From: Alphaproteobacteria bacterium
GTDB lineage: Bacteria; Pseudomonadota; Alphaproteobacteria; Thalassobaculales; Thalassobaculaceae
Assembly (NCBI GenBank): GCA_024742275.1
Contig: JANSYS010000001.1
Span: 310,001 to 374,000, forward strand
Length of the DNA stretch: 64,000 bases
Direction: 5' to 3'
How positions within the stretch are numbered: position 1 is the stretch's first letter; the number at the start of each line of letters is the position of its first letter. Of this stretch, positions 42,735 to 61,607 are shown piece after piece. The notes under the pieces were generated by a model. That model had not been told where the DNA came from. It ran no database searches and saw only the letters and a list, made by a program, of their open reading frames with translations. The translations under genes and the position numbers were made by a program.

Positions 42735-43556
42735 CTAGCGAACGACGGCCGCATCCGAGATTTCCCGGCCCCGCTCTTCGTCCGGCTCCAACCGTTCGGG
42801 GACCAGATCGAACAGAGTGTCGGCGCCCAGATCGTAGCGGGTCGAGGAAAATCGGCGGGCCTCGTCCATGGTGTCGACCGCGTCGAGCATGAACCCCGCG
42901 CGGCCTGAGCCAAGGATCGTCGGAGCCACAAGCAGATGCAGGCGGGAAAGGCATCCCGCCGCCAGGAACCGAGACAGTGTCTTCGCGCCGCCTTCCACCA
43001 GCACCACGTCCAACCCGAAGGCCGACAGGCTTTCAAGGACCCCGCGCGGATCGACAAGGCCGTCCCCATCCGGCTCGCAGGGCAGGTCGACTCCGGTCAC
43101 TAGGGTCGGAGCGGCATCGTCCTTGAACAGTTTGCGGTCGCGGGGAATCCGGGCGGTTCCCGCCAACACCACGCGGGTCGGATTGTCGCCGGCGCAGCGT
43201 CTGACGGTGAGCGAGGGATCGTCCGTCCTCAGGGTGCCCGCCCCGACCACCACCGCGTCGACCAGCGCCCGCAGCCGATGCAGGTGATCCAGAGCCTCCG
43301 GGCCGTTCACGTAGTGGGAATGACCCCGCTCGGTTGCGATCCTGCCGTCCAGGGTCTGACCGCTTTGGCCGACGGCGACAGGCCCGCGAACCGCCGCTTC
43401 GACCAGATCCAGCAAGGCGCCGAAGGCGGGAATAGCTGATCCTTGCGACCGCATGGCCGTCAGATCGGCGATCAGCGGCCGCGCATCGCCGCCCAGCCGG
43501 CGCACTTCGCGAGCGCGAACCATCGCCTGACACAGCGTCTCCCAGCTCACACTCAC
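42735..43556 (-). CDS. RibD C-terminal domain (DHFR-fold) reductase
   Basis: The 273-residue protein has an N-terminal extension of about 60 residues, then the reductase domain: VAVGQSGQTLDGRIA, VVVGAGTLRTDDPSL and VEGGAKTLSRFLAA. It lacks the deaminase domain of bifunctional RibD. Such reductases act on ribosylamino-pyrimidines in flavin or related pathways. GTG 43556 overlaps the creatininase-family stop in a GTGA arrangement, so the two are translationally coupled. Confidence 0.85.
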   Translation of the reverse strand: MSVSWETLCQAMVRAREVRRLGGDARPLIADLTAMRSQGSAIPAFGALLDLVEAAVRGPVAVGQSGQTLDGRIATERGHSHYVNGPEALDHLHRLRALVDAVVVGAGTLRTDDPSLTVRRCAGDNPTRVVLAGTARIPRDRKLFKDDAAPTLVTGVDLPCEPDGDGLVDPRGVLESLSAFGLDVVLVEGGAKTLSRFLAAGCLSRLHLLVAPTILGSGRAGFMLDAVDTMDEARRFSSTRYDLGADTLFDLVPERLEPDEERGREISDAAVVR

Positions 43557-44350
43557 GCCAAACCCTCGAATGCCGCCAGATCACCGATCACCGCGGCGAG
43601 ACGGACAGCCATCGCGTCGATGATGCGGTCGCCGAGTTCGGCTGACGCGGCCGCAGCATTGCCGGTGACGCCGGAGGAATTGAGATCCTGCGCCATCCAC
43701 CCCAGACCCGTTGCACCCTCGCCCTCAAGGGCGGCAAACCCCGCCTCCCACGTCTCGGCGGAGTTGCCGAAATCGGCGAGCGCTTCCCGACGCACCAGAT
43801 CCGGAGCGACGGCCAGCATCATCGACGTTTCCAACATCCCGCCATGCAGGCCGTAGCGCGCCTCGCGGGCACCCAGATCCACCGCATCGCCCAACAGGCG
43901 AAAGGTCGTCGCCCGGACCACCGTCATCGCGTTTTCTACTCTCAGCCGCGTCGCCACCACGTTGACGAGGCCGGTCTGGCCGCCATGGCCGTTGAGGATG
44001 ACCAGCTTGGACACGCCCGCGCGTGCCGCAGAGGCGCCGATGGCACTCCAAGCCGCGATCACCGTTTCAGCGTCGAGCGACAGGGTTCCGGGAAACGCCG
44101 TGTGCTCGGGGCTCAGGCCGACGCGCTGGGTCGGTAGCCGCAGCACAGACGCGCCGGGCACCCCTTTCGCCCGCGCGGCGGCCACCACAGCATCGGTGAG
44201 GATCGCGTCGGTCCCGAGCGGCAGATGCGGGCCGTGCTGCTCGACAGCGGCCACCGGCAGCAGAGCGACCGCATGTGTCGGCACGCCGCCGCTCAAGTCG
44301 GTCGTGGTCAAGTGTTCCCAGTCGATCCAGGCGGGTGATTGATGCGTCAT
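43553..44350 (-). CDS. Creatininase-family amidohydrolase
   Basis: A 265-residue protein starting at ATG 44350. Metal-site motifs are VEQHGPHLPLGTD near residue 38, HTAFPGTLS, NGHGGQ near residue 125, and HGGMLETS. The superfamily includes creatinine amidohydrolase, the mycofactocin protein MftE and the archaeal formamidopyrimidine deformylase ArfB. Coupling to a RibD-C reductase makes a pyrimidine-formamide substrate more likely than creatinine, but this is inference. Confidence 0.85.
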   Translation of the reverse strand: MTHQSPAWIDWEHLTTTDLSGGVPTHAVALLPVAAVEQHGPHLPLGTDAILTDAVVAAARAKGVPGASVLRLPTQRVGLSPEHTAFPGTLSLDAETVIAAWSAIGASAARAGVSKLVILNGHGGQTGLVNVVATRLRVENAMTVVRATTFRLLGDAVDLGAREARYGLHGGMLETSMMLAVAPDLVRREALADFGNSAETWEAGFAALEGEGATGLGWMAQDLNSSGVTGNAAAASAELGDRIIDAMAVRLAAVIGDLAAFEGLA

Positions 44351-50273: not shown

Positions 50274-52481
50274 ATGACACAGTCGCACGACGCCGCATCC
50301 TCATTCGAAAGCGTCATGGTCGAGGATAAGTCCTGCTCGACCATCGTGCGCGCCGACCGAGCTGCGCTGATGGTCGACGGCATGGAGTATTTCGCGGCAC
50401 TGCGGAGTGCCATGCTGCAGGCAAAGCGAACGATCGTGCTGGTCGGATGGGACCTGGACAGCCAGGTCGATCTCGCGCCGCAGTTGCATGACGGTTCCGG
50501 CGTCGATGCCGACGGCGTTCCGACGCAGCTAAAGGCACTGCTCGAATACCTGATCGAAAGAACGCCCGAACTCGAGGTGCGCCTCCTGCTTTGGGATTTC
50601 ACCCCCCTTTTCGTGCGGGAACGCGAGCCGCTCCCGGTCGTCAACCTTGAGCTGACCACCTCGTCGCGGGTGCAGTTGCAACTCGACGACGCCCTGCCGT
50701 TCGGCGCCTGCCACCATCAGAAATTCGCCGTGGTCGACGACGCCATCGGCTTCTGCGGCGGATTGGACGTCACCCGGGAACGCTGGGACACGAGCGAGCA
50801 CACCCCGCACGATCCTCGCCGGATCTCGCCGAAAGGCGGCCTCTACGCACCGTTCCACGACACACACATGGCCGTGACCGGCCCGGCGGCGCGGGCGCTT
50901 GGGGATCTGGCCCGCAAGCGCTGGCAGGCCGTCTGTCCGGACAGCATTCCCGAGGTCGAGGCGGTGGACTCGATCTGGCCCGAAGACCTGGAGCCGCAGT
51001 TCACCGATATCGACGTCGGGTTGTCCCTGACCGAGCCGTCCCTCAACGGCAAGCCCGCTCTCCGACAGATCGAAACCCTCTACGCCAGAGCGATCCGCAA
51101 GGCCGAGCGCCTCGTCTTCATCGAGAACCAGTTCCTGACCGCTCCGGTCGTCGCCAAGGCGCTGACCGAGAGACTTCAGGAACAACCGGAACTCGAAGCC
51201 GTGATCATCACCCCCGCGGTCCAGGAAACCTGGCTCGAGACAAAGTCGATGGGCGGCGGCAGGCGGATGTTCCGGGCCCAGCTCGAGGAGGCGGGCGTGA
51301 CGGATCGCGTCACGCTGGTCGCCCCGGAAACCCGCGCGGCCGACGGATCCAAGGCGTCGGTGATGGTGCATTCCAAGCTGATGATCGTCGACGACAGCTT
51401 CCTGACGGTCGGCTCGGCGAAGCTGAACCGCCGCTCGATGCGGTTCGATACAGAAGCCAATCTGGCGCTGGTCGGCGATACCGACGACCGCCGCCGGACG
51501 ATCGCCGGCCTGCGACATCGCCTGCTCGGGGAGCACCTCGGCCTGACGCCAGAAGAATTTGTCGAGCGTACAGAGGCGAGCGGCAGCGTGGGCGCGCTGG
51601 TGCGCGAAACAGCCGAGGAATACAGATCCGGCTCCGGCGAGGGCCGCGGCCTGCTGCCGATCCAGGAACCGGCCTCCTTCACGCTCGACCCGGCGACCAG
51701 CGTCCTCCTGGACCTGGCGGACCCGGATCGCCAATTGAAGGACGGGGTGCTCGGCTTTCTGTCGATGGACTCGGTTCCGTCTTTCCGCCCGCGCCTGCAG
51801 AAGCTGGTGCTCGCCATCACGATTCTCTGCCTGATCGGTCTCGGCGCGGTCTGGACCACGACGCCGCTCGCGGAGTTCGCCAATGTCGACCGCCTGGGGC
51901 CGCTTTTCGAAAGACTGACGGGGAGTGCGTGGACGCCGCTGCTGGTCGCCGCGGTCTATACCGTCGCCAGCCTGACCATGTTCCTAATCACCGTGCTTCT
52001 GGTCCTGACCGCGGTCACCTTCGAACCTGTAGTCGCGGTCCTTTACTCGATCCTGGGAACGACGTTGGGCGCCGTTCTGACCTACGGGATTGGACGCTGG
52101 GGCGGGCGCGATCTGGTCCACCGACTGATGGGCCATCGCCTGAAGGCCCTGTCAGGCAAGGTCGGCCAACAGGGAATCGTGGCGGTTCTCACTTTGCGGA
52201 TCACCCCGATCGCGCCCTTCACTCTGATCAACGTGCTCGCCGGTGCGACCCACATCAAACCCTGGGATTTCGTGATCGGGACGGCTCTCGGTCTTCTGCC
52301 GAGCGTGATCGCGCTGACCGCCGTCGGCGAGAGCATCTGGCAGCTGTTTTCCGACCCGACGTTGACCCGAGTGGCGATCCTCGTCGGCGTGCTGCTGGGA
52401 TGGCTCGGCCTCAGCATTCTGCTCCAACGCGTGGTCAACATGCTCAGTTCCGACGACGATGACGATGAGAACGACGACTGA
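50274..52481 (+). CDS. Phospholipase D-family protein fused to a VTT (DedA-like) membrane domain
   Basis: The 735-residue protein has two HKD half-sites: H148-x-K150 in HHQKFAVVDD and H366-x-K368 in HSKLMIVDD, forming one phospholipase D active site. The C-terminal third has several transmembrane helices and a VTT domain (GAVLTYGIGRWGGRDLV, LTLRITPIAPFTLINVLAG). The tail is a run of Asp/Glu. It probably acts on membrane phospholipids, like cardiolipin synthases. The next gene, 6 bases on, encodes an EEP nuclease-fold protein, as in the E. coli ybhP-clsB pair. Confidence 0.88.
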   Translation: MTQSHDAASSFESVMVEDKSCSTIVRADRAALMVDGMEYFAALRSAMLQAKRTIVLVGWDLDSQVDLAPQLHDGSGVDADGVPTQLKALLEYLIERTPELEVRLLLWDFTPLFVREREPLPVVNLELTTSSRVQLQLDDALPFGACHHQKFAVVDDAIGFCGGLDVTRERWDTSEHTPHDPRRISPKGGLYAPFHDTHMAVTGPAARALGDLARKRWQAVCPDSIPEVEAVDSIWPEDLEPQFTDIDVGLSLTEPSLNGKPALRQIETLYARAIRKAERLVFIENQFLTAPVVAKALTERLQEQPELEAVIITPAVQETWLETKSMGGGRRMFRAQLEEAGVTDRVTLVAPETRAADGSKASVMVHSKLMIVDDSFLTVGSAKLNRRSMRFDTEANLALVGDTDDRRRTIAGLRHRLLGEHLGLTPEEFVERTEASGSVGALVRETAEEYRSGSGEGRGLLPIQEPASFTLDPATSVLLDLADPDRQLKDGVLGFLSMDSVPSFRPRLQKLVLAITILCLIGLGAVWTTTPLAEFANVDRLGPLFERLTGSAWTPLLVAAVYTVASLTMFLITVLLVLTAVTFEPVVAVLYSILGTTLGAVLTYGIGRWGGRDLVHRLMGHRLKALSGKVGQQGIVAVLTLRITPIAPFTLINVLAGATHIKPWDFVIGTALGLLPSVIALTAVGESIWQLFSDPTLTRVAILVGVLLGWLGLSILLQRVVNMLSSDDDDDENDD

Positions 52482-52487
52482 CGCCCG

Positions 52488-53285
52488 ATGCCGATCACCG
52501 TTGCGACTTTCAACATCCACGACGCGGTCGGGACGGACGGTGTCCGAGACATCGCCCGTATCGCTCGGGCGATCGAGGAGACAAGCGCGGATGTCGTCGC
52601 CCTGCAGGAGGTCTCGGGACCCGGCGGGGTGAAGGGGACCCGCCCGGATCTCTTTGCCGTTCTGTCGCGGTCGTTCGGCGGCTACGCGGTCGAGGGAGCC
52701 GCGCTGCTGGATCCGGAGAGGCGATACGGCAACCTGCTGCTGTCCAAGTGGCCGGTGATCGACCAGCGCGTTGCCGATCTGACCTATGGCAGTCGAGAAC
52801 CCCGTACGGCCATCGTGGCGACCCTCGCCTCACCGGCCGGTCCGCTCCGCATCATAGCCAGCCATTTCGGCCTGAAACTCGGAGAGCGATGGCGGCAGGC
52901 CGGAACGATCGGCGGTCTGGTAGGAACGGAGCGGGCCTTGCCGACCATCGTCCTGGGCGATTTCAACGACTGGCTGCCGTTCTCGCCGGCCGTTCGACGT
53001 TTGTGCCGCGCGCTCGACCTGCTCCCCGGCCCGTTCAAACGCGTTCCCACCTTTCCGAGCCGCCTTCCCTTGCTCGCCCTCGACCGCATTCTAACGAACG
53101 GTTTGATCATACCGCGCACACTCGAGGTATAGCAGACGCATCTGGGCCGAACGGCGTCGGATCACCGTCCACTGATTGCGGAAATCGAAATCATCCGAGC
53201 CGCGCGGCGCTCCCCGGAAATGCAGGCAATGAACTCCAAACTCGTACCGATCTTCGCAAACGCTCGATTCCAGCCGCGCCTCTAA
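52488..53285 (+). pseudogene. EEP-superfamily (endonuclease/exonuclease/phosphatase) gene interrupted by an in-frame TAG
   Basis: The first 214 codons encode an EEP fold with FNIH, the LQEV metal glutamate and LGDFND. TAG at 53130-53132 then stops the frame. Reading on in the same frame gives TASDHRPLIAEIEI, the C-terminal catalytic SDHRPL motif, and a TAA at 53283. The product as written thus lacks its Asp-His catalytic pair. A single base change (for example CAG to TAG) or a sequencing error would explain it. It follows the phospholipase D-VTT gene by 6 bases. Confidence 0.85.
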
Positions 53286-53482
53286 GACGGCAACCATCGC
53301 CGAACGGTAGATTGCCATTTCGGCTCACAACCCTTAAGGCATTTACAACAATTAAATACAATCTAACAAAATTTAACGATAATTTAAAATATAGAAATTT
53401 AAACTCCCCACTGATCTGGCGTCCTGAGCCACCCAGGCCGGAGAAGCGCCTACGCTCGTTCTAGATCTCGGGAGTTATTACT
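53286..53482. other. AT-rich promoter region of the CHASE3 chemoreceptor
   Basis: Bases 53334-53405 are very AT-rich (repeated AATTTAA-like runs), unlike the window average. No gene or firm -35/-10 pair is seen. The region presumably carries the promoter of the next gene. Confidence 0.4.
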
Positions 53483-55666
53483 ATGTTCTCCAGCCTCAAG
53501 ACCCGCACCAAGGTCCTTGTCGGCGTTCTCTCGCCTCTTTCACTTTTGGTCGTGTTGGGCGGCGTCACTTTCTACAGCGTGACATCGATCGTCAGGACAA
53601 CGGACTGGGTCGATCACACCCGCGTCGTTCTCAGCGAAGCGAGTGGATTGGTGGCGGCGGCCGTCGACATGGAAACCGGCATGCGCGGGTATCTACTGGC
53701 CGGAAAGGAAGACTTTCTAGATCCGTACAAGGGCGGTGAAAGCCGGGCCTACACCGGGATCGACGAGTTGCAGAAGACGGTAAGCGATAATCCCGGCCAG
53801 GTCGCGCGCCTGGATGAAGTGCGCCAGGTCCTGAAGGACTGGCAGTCGAACGTCACGACGCCGACGATCGAATTCCGCCGAGAGATCGGCGACGCGAAGA
53901 CCATGAATGACATGGCCAAGCTGGTCGGCGAGGCCCGCGGCAAGATCTTCTTCGACAAGTTCCGCGGCCAACTCGCCACCTTCGTGGAGCGCGAGGCGGT
54001 ACTGCTCGTGAAGCGCCGGCAGGAGTTCGAAGAGGCCTTCAAGGTCATGCAGACCAATCCGAACCCGGCAGCCCTCGAGACCCTTCGCGAGAACGAGGCC
54101 TGGGTCAGCCACACCTATCGGGTCATCGGCGAGGCTAAGGAGATTCTGCTTGCCGCCGTTGACATGGAAACCGGTATGCGTGGCTACCTGCTCGCCGGCA
54201 AGGAAGAGTTCCTCGAGCCGCTCAACGGCGGACGTGAGAGGTTCGCGGCTCTTGTCACTGAGCTGAGCAACACAGTCTCGGACAATCCCGCCCAGGTTGA
54301 ACTGCTGGACGAGATCTCCGCGACGATCCGCGAATGGAACTCCTTGGTCGTCGACCCCGCCATCCAACTCCGTCGGGAGATCGGCGACGCGGCGACGATG
54401 GACGATATGGCGGACCTGATCGGAGAAGCTCGCGGCAAAGCCTACTTCGACAAGTTCAGGGCCCTGATGAAGGCATTTGCCGACGAAGAAGAAGCCCTCA
54501 TGGTCGAGCGGATGGCGGAGAAGGAATCGACGACGTCCTTCACCTACATCGCGATCATCGCAAGCGTCATCGCCGGGTTGATTATCGGTGTCGTCGCAGC
54601 CGTCTTCATCGGCGGCCAGATCGGCTCCCCGATCGTCAACATGACCCGGACGATGCGCGAGCTCGCCGACGGCAAAGCGGAGGCCGAAATCCCCGGGACG
54701 GATCGCAAGGACGAGATCGGCGAGATGGCCGGTGCAGTCTCGGTGTTCAAGGAGAACATGATCAAAGCCCGCGAACTCGAGGCCCGCGAGAAGGAACAGC
54801 AGGCAGAGCGCGACCGCCGCGCCAAGCAGGTTGAAGAAGCCGTCCGTTCCTTCCAGACCACGATCGGAGAGCGGCTGGACAGCCTGTCCGGTGTCTCTTC
54901 GGAGCTTGGCCGGTCGGCGGAAGAGCTGGCCCGGTCCGCGGAGAGCGCCAAGCAACAGAGCATGATCGCCTCCTCGGCGACGGACGAGACCTCCTCCAAC
55001 GTGCAGAACGTCTCCGCCGCGGCGGAAGAAATGGACGCATCGTTCGGAGAGATCGTCTCGCAAGTCACGAGAGCCAGCACCTCGGTCCGGGACACCTCCG
55101 CCAAGGCGCAGGAGACCCTGACCCTTATGGAGGATCTTCAGGCGCAGTCGGAAGCGATCGCTCAAGTGATCGAGTTGATCAATGGCATCTCTGAGCAGAC
55201 CAATCTGTTGGCGCTCAATGCCACCATCGAAGCCGCCCGGGCCGGCGACGCCGGAAAGGGCTTCGCGGTTGTCGCCAACGAGGTGAAGAGCCTTGCCACC
55301 CAGACCGGCAAAGCCACAGTCGAAATCGGCGACAAGATCCGCGGCGTACAGGAGATTTCAGGCGCCTCGATGGAGTCGGTGCGGACCATCGCGCAGAGCA
55401 TCCGGGATATCGACGAAATCTCGGCCGCGATCTCGGCCTCGGTCGAGGAGCAGAAAGCGGCGACGACGGAGATCACGCGCAACATGCAACAGGCGGGCGA
55501 AGGCACGTCCCAGCTCTCCGAGAACATGGCCCAGCTCAATCAGACGGCCGACCGGACCTCTGCCGCCGTGTCGGGCGTGACGGACGCTGCGGGTCGCACC
55601 GATGATGAGGCCAAGGAAATCCGAGAGGCGGTCGGTGAGTTCATCCAAAAGGTAAAGGTGGCCTGA
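53483..55666 (+). CDS. Methyl-accepting chemotaxis protein with two tandem CHASE3 sensor domains
   Basis: The 727-residue receptor has transmembrane helices near residues 12-35 and 355-380. Between them the CHASE3 hallmark VDMETGMRGYLLAGKE occurs twice, starting at residues 61 and 226, each followed by FRREIGDAxTM-like and GEARGK segments, so the sensor is duplicated. HAMP, a helical region and a signalling domain with [18 protein letters not shown] follow. CHASE3 ligands are mostly unknown. It is preceded by GGGAG. Confidence 0.93.
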   Translation: MFSSLKTRTKVLVGVLSPLSLLVVLGGVTFYSVTSIVRTTDWVDHTRVVLSEASGLVAAAVDMETGMRGYLLAGKEDFLDPYKGGESRAYTGIDELQKTVSDNPGQVARLDEVRQVLKDWQSNVTTPTIEFRREIGDAKTMNDMAKLVGEARGKIFFDKFRGQLATFVEREAVLLVKRRQEFEEAFKVMQTNPNPAALETLRENEAWVSHTYRVIGEAKEILLAAVDMETGMRGYLLAGKEEFLEPLNGGRERFAALVTELSNTVSDNPAQVELLDEISATIREWNSLVVDPAIQLRREIGDAATMDDMADLIGEARGKAYFDKFRALMKAFADEEEALMVERMAEKESTTSFTYIAIIASVIAGLIIGVVAAVFIGGQIGSPIVNMTRTMRELADGKAEAEIPGTDRKDEIGEMAGAVSVFKENMIKARELEAREKEQQAERDRRAKQVEEAVRSFQTTIGERLDSLSGVSSELGRSAEELARSAESAKQQSMIASSATDETSSNVQNVSAAAEEMDASFGEIVSQVTRASTSVRDTSAKAQETLTLMEDLQAQSEAIAQVIELINGISEQTNLLALNATIEAARAGDAGKGFAVVANEVKSLATQTGKATVEIGDKIRGVQEISGASMESVRTIAQSIRDIDEISAAISASVEEQKAATTEITRNMQQAGEGTSQLSENMAQLNQTADRTSAAVSGVTDAAGRTDDEAKEIREAVGEFIQKVKVA

Positions 55667-58833: not shown

Positions 58834-60000
58834 CTACTCCTGGACGTCGGGAAAACCGTCGATGGGGCCTAGTCCCTGAGTATCGCGGGCGACCACCGGC
58901 GGCGAAGCCATGTACACCGCGATCAGGCGCGCGATGGCGATCAGAGACTCTACATGCACCCGCTCCCAACCATGGCTGCCATCGAGACCGAAGGCGATCA
59001 GGGCGGTCCGGATGTCGTTCCCCGCCTCGATGGCCGAGGCCGCGTCGCAACGATAGTGCTTGAACACGTCGCGGCTGTGCTCGATCCCATGACGCTCCGC
59101 GAGGGCGATGAGGCCATGGGAAAGGTGGTAGTCGAAAGGACCTGTCATATCGCCCATGGCGATCGTGGCGCCGTATTCCGACGAATTCTGACCGGGCGCG
59201 ACGGTGGCGTTGTCCACCGATAGAAGTTCCGAGACGTCGCCGTGCAGAATGGACGAGGCACCGGAGCCGGTCTCTTCGGAGATGGTGAACAGGAAGTGGC
59301 AATCGACCGGAAGCGGCAGCTTCTCCTCCAGCACCGCCTCGAGCGCGGTGAGCATCGCGGCGACGCCCGCCTTGTCGTCAAGATGGCGGCTGTTGATGAA
59401 GCCGGCCGGCGTCACCTCGGGATTTGGATCGACCGCGACGATGTCGCCCACGTTGAATCTCGCTCCCACCAGATCGCTGTGGGAGGAGACGCGCTCGTCG
59501 ATCCGAATCTCGAGGTTCTCCCAATCCGAAGGCTGGGTGTCGATACCGGTGTCGAAAACGTGCCCAGACGCCTTCAAGGGAAGGATCGTGCCGCGTCGCG
59601 GACCGACATCGGTGAAGATCGTCACCCGCGCTCCCTCGGCGAAGCGGGCCGCCCAGGTACCGATCGGACGGAGGGAGAGCCGGCCGTTCTCCTTGAGGGC
59701 GGTCACTTGAGCCCCGAGGGTATCCAGATGAGAGACCACGGCCCGATCCGGACTGTAGACGTCCCCGCGCAGATTGACCCGGATCGCGCCGCGTCGCGTG
59801 ATCTCGTACTCGACGCCCAACTCTTTCAGATGCCCGCAGACGTGATGGACGATCGTGTCGGTATATCCCGTCGGACTAGGGATGGCCTGCAATTCAAGCA
59901 GCAGCTCGATGATCCGCTCACCGTCGATCCGCCGAAGCACCCGCGCCATCGGATCGCGGGCATCGATCGGTCGCAGGTGGCCGTGTTCAGCCGCTGGCAT
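58834..60000 (-). CDS. NAGGN-system M42-family peptidase
   Basis: The 388-residue metallopeptidase has VVSHLDTLGA, the metal segment SRHLDDKAG and the SEETGSGAS active-site motif of M42/M20-like aminopeptidases. Members next to asnO and ngg form a conserved three-gene osmoprotectant locus and may degrade or process the dipeptide NAGGN. Its start overlaps the ngg end by 14 bases. Confidence 0.88.
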   Translation of the reverse strand: MPAAEHGHLRPIDARDPMARVLRRIDGERIIELLLELQAIPSPTGYTDTIVHHVCGHLKELGVEYEITRRGAIRVNLRGDVYSPDRAVVSHLDTLGAQVTALKENGRLSLRPIGTWAARFAEGARVTIFTDVGPRRGTILPLKASGHVFDTGIDTQPSDWENLEIRIDERVSSHSDLVGARFNVGDIVAVDPNPEVTPAGFINSRHLDDKAGVAAMLTALEAVLEEKLPLPVDCHFLFTISEETGSGASSILHGDVSELLSVDNATVAPGQNSSEYGATIAMGDMTGPFDYHLSHGLIALAERHGIEHSRDVFKHYRCDAASAIEAGNDIRTALIAFGLDGSHGWERVHVESLIAIARLIAVYMASPPVVARDTQGLGPIDGFPDVQE

Positions 60001-61607
60001 GTCTTGGCTCCTTCATTTCGAGAAAGCGGTCCGTGGTCTGGGGAAACAGAAGATCGACGAACGCCTCGGCCGTCGGCTGCGGCTCGTGATTGGCGAGACC
60101 CGGCCGCTCGTTCGCTTCGATGATCACATAGTCGTCGCGCTCGACGTCCGGCACCAGGAAATCGAACCCCACCACCGGGATATCGAGGATGCGGGCCCCC
60201 TCCTCCGCCACCTCCCTCAGGCGCGGGTTGAGCCGGTCGGTCACGTCGTGAATGGTACCGCCGGTATGCAGGTTGGCCGTCTTACGCACCGCCAAAGACT
60301 GACCCTTGGGCAGGATCATGTCAAAGTCGTACCCGGCCGACCGAACACAGCGTTCGGTCTCCGAGTCGACAGGAATGCGGCTCTCCCCGCCGGTCGCTGA
60401 CGATTTCCGCCGCCTCTATAGCGCGGACCATGTCGACCGGATCGCTGATGTCGACGGAGATCCCCCGGCCCTGCTCGCCGCGCGCCGGCTTGACGACGAT
60501 CCGACCGTATTGCTCCAGGAAAGCCCGCGCGTCGCTCTCGTCGTCGACCTCGTGCTGTGCCGGGACCCGCAGCCCATGGCGGGCCAGAAGCCGGTGGGTC
60601 AGGGACTTGTCGTCGCATCGGCTGAGCGCGACTGCGCTGGTCAGTTCCGACAGCGACTCCCGGCAGGAGACGCGGCGTCCACCGTGGGACAGCGCGAACA
60701 GGCCGCCTTCCGCATCCTCGACATCCACATTCACGCCGCGGCGCCTGGCTTCGTTGATGATGATCCGGGCATAGGGGTTCAGCTTCGCCTCGGGCATGGG
60801 CGCGCTGTACAGCTTCTCATTGATCGGATTCTTGTACTTCAGAGAAAACAGCGGCACCCGCTGGAACCCGAGTTTCTCATAGAGCTTTATAGCAGGACCG
60901 TTGTCATGCATCACCGACAGGTCCAAATGCGCCAGTCCGCGTGTCTGGAAAGTTTCGATCAAATGACGCAGCAGGACCTCACCGATCCCCGGCAGCGGCG
61001 CCTGCGGATCGACGGCTAGGCACCAGAGGCTGGAGCCGCCCTCCGGGTCGTCGTAAACGCGCTCGTGGTCGACTCCGGTGATCGTTCCCACCACCTGCCC
61101 CGTGGTGCTGTCCACGGCCACAAGATGGACGATGCGCCTCGACCCGCGATGGGCGAGCAGAAAGTCGCGCGCGACAGGGATCATTCCGACCTTTGCGTAG
61201 ATCCGGTTCACCGCCTCTGCGTCGGCGCTGGAGCGCAGTCGCCGGACATAGATTCCCACGACCCGGTCGCTCCGCGGGCGATAGTGCTCGAACTCCAGAC
61301 GGAAGGTGTGTGACGGGTCGAGGAAGAAAGCCTCAGGCGCCTGGGCGAGTACGACGTGCGGGTTGTTGACGTTGATCGTGATGTCCCGCTCGTCCGGCGC
61401 CTCCTGCCGCATCACCTCGGCAAGCCCTTCCGCGGTCTCGAAGGTGTCCGCGAAGATCAGTCGGCCCCACCCCACATTGACGACGGCATTTGGCTGCCCG
61501 CGGTCCTCGGGCGGGCCCTCGCCGGGGTGGCGGGTCCAGGCGCGGCGCGAACGGCCACGCGCCCGGGCACGGCGCTGCTTGAACTCTCGCTGAGCGCGTT
61601 CAGTCAT
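59987..61607 (-). pseudogene. ngg: N-acetylglutaminylglutamine synthetase gene, internally deleted and frameshifted
   Basis: The gene should encode a GNAT acetyltransferase joined to an ATP-grasp ligase. The first frame (61607-60321) holds the GNAT part and early ATP-grasp (ARIIINEARRRGVNVDV, RIVVKPARGEQGRGISVD), then runs into a nonsense tail. The family sequence resumes in another frame from about 60415 (RRRKSSATGGESRIP, then MILPKGQSLAVRKTANLHTGG) to the stop at 59987. From memory of the family, about 50 residues are missing at the junction (near 60412-60432), including part of the ATP-binding region. Both neighbours are intact. A real deletion or an assembly error are both possible. Confidence 0.85.

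Follow-up and report, generated by a model that had tools for sequence, protein, structure and literature searches.

The window, a stretch of 64,000 nucleotides covering 310001-374000 of contig C61, belongs to the genome of a marine bacterium which we place in the genus Thalassobaculum; this genome has 4.69 Mb in 88 contigs (completeness 97.9). On its forward strand, a gene encoding a fusion of phospholipase D and VTT domains (PLD-VTT) ends in a TGA at 52479-52481; 6 bases after this stop, the ATG of an EEP gene at 52488 opens a frame which is closed, after 214 codons, by a TAG at 53130-53132. The features on which the analysis rests are the following:

50274-52481, forward strand: PLD-VTT fusion, 735 aa, stop TGA; Pfam matches to PLDc, PLDc_2 and VTT
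50715-50738, forward strand: first HKD motif, residues 148-155 (H148, K150, D155), each of the three present in 80/80 homologues
51369-51422, forward strand: second HKD motif through GSxN, residues 366-383 (H366, K368 and D373 kept, each in 80/80 homologues; residue 383 is Lys)
51984-51986, forward strand: residue 571, Leu, placed by the model just before a predicted helix (572-582) of the VTT part; Pro in 80/80 others
51990-52331, forward strand: VTT membrane domain (DedA/TVP38-type), residues 573-686; PF09335, 85.8 bits, cut-off 33.9
52488-53132, forward strand: interrupted EEP gene, 214 codons and TAG; PF03372, 64.8 bits, cut-off 24.5, residues 6-206
53130-53132, forward strand: premature TAG, in a loop variable among relatives; a gap column in most other EEPs, Pro (CCC) in the four closest orthologues
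53133-53285, forward strand: same frame after the stop up to TAA, encoding SDHRPL at 53157-53174; homology to the C termini of intact EEPs
59987-61607, reverse strand: GNAT and ATP-grasp gene, split, its frame shifted by a net loss of 167 bases; in T. litoreum one ORF of 595 residues

The PLD-VTT fusion ahead of the EEP gene, recognized earlier in the sequence-only reading, is borne out by the Pfam matches: PLDc at residues 147-170, PLDc_2 at 272-399 and VTT at 573-686, the last being a match to the PF09335 profile of VTT/DedA domains. Both HxKxxxxD motifs of the PLD superfamily are present. The AlphaFold model of the protein has a mean pLDDT of 84.9 and a pTM of 0.78, and the orthologues in two congeners, Thalassobaculum litoreum (G002) and G004, are 79% and 78% identical, respectively. 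The second HKD motif is followed by a GSxN consensus, whose Asn falls at residue 383. GSxN is absent at this place from the window protein, where residue 383 is Lys, versus Asn in 80/80 other homologues (the best 80 of 484); likewise, residue 571 in the VTT part is Leu, versus Pro in 80/80 of the same set. When such singleton changes at otherwise invariant sites are counted over the 81 sequences, 72 have none, six have one and three have two (the window, L159 and L191); that 2 of the 80 other sequences carry two such changes as well speaks against reading them as decay in the window. In one family relative (L010; G009 C136:11144-15160) the PLD homologue is itself stopped by a TAG, after about 333 residues, and no VTT match lies behind it.

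Conservation of the gene pair was evaluated over loci from named genomes, the best 80 of 484 PLD-VTT relatives that were confirmed; several of these are the same contigs as those of the genomes compared below, and an EEP match was accepted if located downstream of PLD-VTT, on the same strand, with E up to 1e-4. Such a match is found just downstream in 72 of these 80 loci, its EEP model starting between -3 and 159 bases from the PLD-VTT stop. Eight loci lack it: in three of them (L150, L171, L175) the contig ends within 650 bases. Two loci from MAGs carry an imperfect EEP: in L180, a second copy in G026, it is split between two frames, while in L192 it is matched only over 43 positions. When flanking ORFs are grouped, EEP covers 71 of the 80 loci (again the best 80 of 484), and the next groups not overlying the two genes by position cover 7. 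Among 61 genomes examined, EEP directly follows PLD-VTT in G002, G004, G010, G019, G007, G018 and G026, and the window shows the same arrangement, with EEP on the same strand directly behind PLD-VTT. PLD-VTT and EEP are thus a conserved two-gene module.

In the window, the second gene of this module is interrupted. The TAG within the EEP frame, and an SDHRPL motif encoded in that frame 25 bases past it, had both been pointed out before and are confirmed by the ORF reading: the frame past the TAG is open to a TAA at 53283-53285, and TCG GAT CAC CGT CCA CTG (53157-53174) encodes SDHRPL. The truncated product still matches the EEP superfamily profile PF03372 across the domain; the C-terminal SDH catalytic motif is absent from it, being encoded, but beyond the TAG. 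An SDH occurring in frame by chance was rejected: the frame past the TAG is homologous to intact EEPs, because past the stop 15/20 aligned residues agree with T. litoreum and 16/24 with G004, and because S, D and H are kept in 71/71 other aligned EEPs. Before the stop, identities are 137/214 and 133/214, respectively; the two parts do not differ by Fisher's test (p = 1.0 for 137/214 before versus 16/24 after the stop, figures taken from two different relatives). Codons past the stop are no more decayed than the rest of the gene, a condition which also fits a base error or read-through. Compared with the nearest orthologues, the frame after the TAG has about 25 additional codons; it is followed by an AT-rich stretch (53285-53482).

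The EEP alignment comprises the window sequence and 71 others (70 named loci from the best 80 of 484, plus G004); L180 and L192 were left out because EEP is split or partial there. At the stop column, 56 of the 71 other EEPs have a gap. In the comparison of this codon across relatives that had been proposed earlier, G002, G004, G010 and G019 carry a sense codon there, CCC (Pro), followed by SDH in an intact gene. Over all 72 sequences 21 columns are invariant, with N, E, D, N, H and SDH among the invariant positions; wherever the other 71 sequences are invariant, the window agrees with them.

The Asp and the His of the SDH motif are catalytic in EEP enzymes. The T. litoreum EEP was modelled (mean pLDDT 94.7, pTM 0.92), and there the part beyond the aligned stop position contains a helix (216-221), SDH (222-224) and a strand (227-233). 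Judging from this model, truncation costs the protein its last core strand and a short helix, along with the catalytic Asp-His; the product should therefore be inactive. A 214-residue EEP retained for a non-catalytic role, for instance as a partner of PLD-VTT, might be suggested by the retention, before the stop, of the residues invariant elsewhere; given that S-D-H is present in 71/71 other aligned EEPs, and that a strand of the predicted fold is among the parts lost, such a role is considered extremely unlikely. Since the EEP begins at the first predicted strand, leaving no room for a signal peptide, we infer that the intact enzyme is cytosolic.

The gene might, alternatively, be intact, and the TAG a base-calling or assembly error. 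This would agree with the presence of a single lesion in EEP, with the preservation of downstream codons and of all columns invariant elsewhere, and with the variability of the stop column, so that the codon standing there could have been a sense one, a single step from TAG. The codon of the nearest orthologues, CCC, is however more than one substitution from TAG. Forty places of the window with counterparts among the ORFs of G002 or G004 at more than 60% identity were surveyed for lesions: only two are clearly damaged, EEP and the GNAT/ATP-grasp gene. No gene other than EEP was found to have an in-frame stop within its body, and base quality therefore looks good. Signs of loosened constraint elsewhere in the pair (N383K, P571L, a long EEP branch) also speak against an error, which we regard as rather unlikely. 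Two apparent stops at 42792-43751 were not retained as a lesion: they lie upstream of the start of the window ORF (43556), overlapping the preceding gene.

Read-through of the TAG, yielding some full-length EEP, is another way to account for a frame and an SDH motif preserved past the stop; as the TAG falls in a length-variable loop, insertion of nearly any residue should be harmless there. Rfam matches 79 tRNAs in the genome, and none of the 76 typed by ARAGORN has anticodon CTA (three are untyped). With the PylS model the score is 28.3 bits (cut-off 178.15), a weak test because 13 of 14 control genomes gave a match too (one over the cut-off), while prfA, for release factor 1, is present, at 531 bits and over its cut-off. 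Recoding of UAG by pyrrolysine or by a suppressor tRNA is accordingly not supported. TAG terminates 10 of the 43 ORFs picked in the window, EEP included, and ends PLD-VTT in G002 and G004. The four nearest orthologues have a sense codon at the stop column. Read-through is considered very unlikely. As for the arrangement of the tRNA genes, dense arrays occur in this genome, with 16 tRNAs in 16 kb on one contig (L089, C15:1-16000) and a further 16 in two stretches of another, C8 (L090, L091); these arrays are perhaps phage or plasmid.

The genus context was then considered. Six Thalassobaculum genomes were found, and among them no second isolate of the window species. The pair is present in three of the six: the window genome (G000), T. 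litoreum (G002) and G004. It is flanked by proline racemase on one side and MlrC on the other. In a fourth genome, G003, these two flanking genes are separated by 815 bases, which resemble the G004 sequence between EEP and MlrC (84% over 658 bases), and a search of an 11-kb stretch of G003 for PLD-VTT and EEP gave nothing better than E 0.009: this congener is without the pair at the same site. Neither PLD-VTT nor EEP is found in the other two genomes listed in the genus, G001 and G005, at 1.5 Mb. The space between EEP and MlrC varies: MlrC directly follows EEP in T. litoreum, other ORFs lie between them in G004, and in the window the interval holds a chemoreceptor gene with two CHASE3 stretches (53483-55666, forward strand).

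Branch lengths were estimated on a fixed topology, because a free EEP tree failed to recover the expected grouping. On this tree the window branch is 0.40 (LG) or 0.65 (LG+G4) for EEP, versus 0.13 or 0.16 for PLD-VTT. Tajima tests give, for EEP, p = 0.024, 0.27, 0.020 and 0.036, according to the partner chosen, and 0.25-0.40 for PLD-VTT. The dN/dS ratio of EEP (NG86) is 0.27-0.29 from the window to congeners, versus 0.37 between congeners, and is therefore not raised, which speaks against decay, as does the undecayed state of the codons past the stop. N383K, P571L, the long EEP branch and the absence of the pair from G003 all fit a loosened constraint on the pair.

Three causes had been offered for the stop in the sequence-only reading: a recent nonsense mutation, stop-codon read-through or a sequencing error. 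The two changes in PLD-VTT, the long EEP branch and G003 favour the first; dedicated read-through finds no support, and a sequencing error keeps the low probability given above. Disruption of a second nearby gene, the GNAT/ATP-grasp gene with its net loss of 167 bases, is also counted in favour of a real inactivation. The explanation we prefer, with a probability of roughly 0.65, is a real and recent nonsense mutation that inactivates EEP, as part of a relaxed constraint affecting the unit as a whole; from one congener this unit is absent altogether. Both the reality of the base and the recency of the mutation are inferred from the comparisons described.

The role of the pair is probably in membrane lipid remodelling, presumably acting on lipid headgroups, and the link between remodelling and lipid flipping, suggested before, is plausible. 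The PLD part, anchored to the membrane, would act at the inner membrane, hydrolysing or transphosphatidylating a phospholipid headgroup; the VTT part, a lipid-transport domain of DedA/TVP38 type, may move the lipid product between leaflets; EEP, as a soluble phosphodiesterase or phosphatase, would process in the cytosol the phosphate-bearing headgroup, released or still attached. Literature searches, covering titles and abstract openings, with subscription papers mostly outside their scope, returned no paper on the combination of PLD-VTT and EEP. We tentatively propose, at somewhat less than even odds, that the two genes form an undescribed conserved lipid module, chiefly of Proteobacteria, in which a eukaryotic-type PLD with its own scramblase-like domain is always meant to act together with a dedicated EEP phosphodiesterase, and that the window represents a species caught while losing the module, with both proteins damaged. 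A nonsense codon by itself is ordinary gene inactivation; its wider value lies in the partnership it exposes, which leads to a testable hypothesis, the coupling of phospholipid headgroup chemistry to leaflet exchange, for which one genus offers a natural loss series of the pair.

Comparison with known systems may be made for each component. Among solved structures, the sequence of the PLD half matches PLD1, PLD2, PLD alpha 1 and 7v53 (from P. aeruginosa by its title), and in the fold search PLD1 and PLD2 come out on top, ahead of plant PLD and P. aeruginosa PLD. This half is of PLD1/PLD2 type, closer to human and plant PLD than to cardiolipin synthase. An assignment as cardiolipin synthase was rejected on two NCBIfam equivalog models, with 31.7 bits against 281 for ClsB and 28.5 against 290 for TIGR04265 of bacterial Cls; the undecaprenyl-phosphate transporter model, in turn, gives on PLD-VTT only 23.8 bits, the cut-off being 250. 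With the eukaryotic-type enzymes (human PLD1 and PLD2, plant PLD alpha, and PldA, the PLD of P. aeruginosa) the window protein shares the two HKD motifs and its best sequence and fold matches. Identity is 16-20% where the listed PLD1, PLD2 and plant entries match by fold. The window protein differs from these enzymes by the VTT domain fused behind and by the EEP gene next to it.

The VTT domain is held in common with DedA/VTT proteins (COG0398 type; TVP38, TMEM41B), a likeness based on the PF09335 match. COG0398 proteins have been suggested as phospholipid scramblases in PMC10127716, whose main text names other fusion partners and does not contain the terms "phospholipase" or "PLD". EEP has its best structural match, both by sequence and by fold, in 4ruw, and for 8 of 9 aligned members there is, in addition, a match to the PGAP2IP C-terminal domain. 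In its fold and profile matches and in its invariant positions it is like the EEP superfamily (4ruw, 3g6s, 3teb, TDP2, Nocturnin), from which the window member differs by the interrupting TAG.

At the level of gene order, a parallel was drawn by the sequence-only reading with ybhP and clsB of E. coli, where ybhP is the EEP gene. The enterobacterial clsB operon, whose gene order is written ybhP-clsB-ybhN for Salmonella in PMC9241728, likewise sets an HKD-type lipid enzyme beside an EEP gene. As a resemblance between operons, the analogy is fair. It does not extend to the enzyme, since the PLD of the window is of PLD1/PLD2 type, far below the ClsB cut-off; in addition, the window EEP gene comes after the PLD gene, not before it, and the VTT domain is fused to the PLD.
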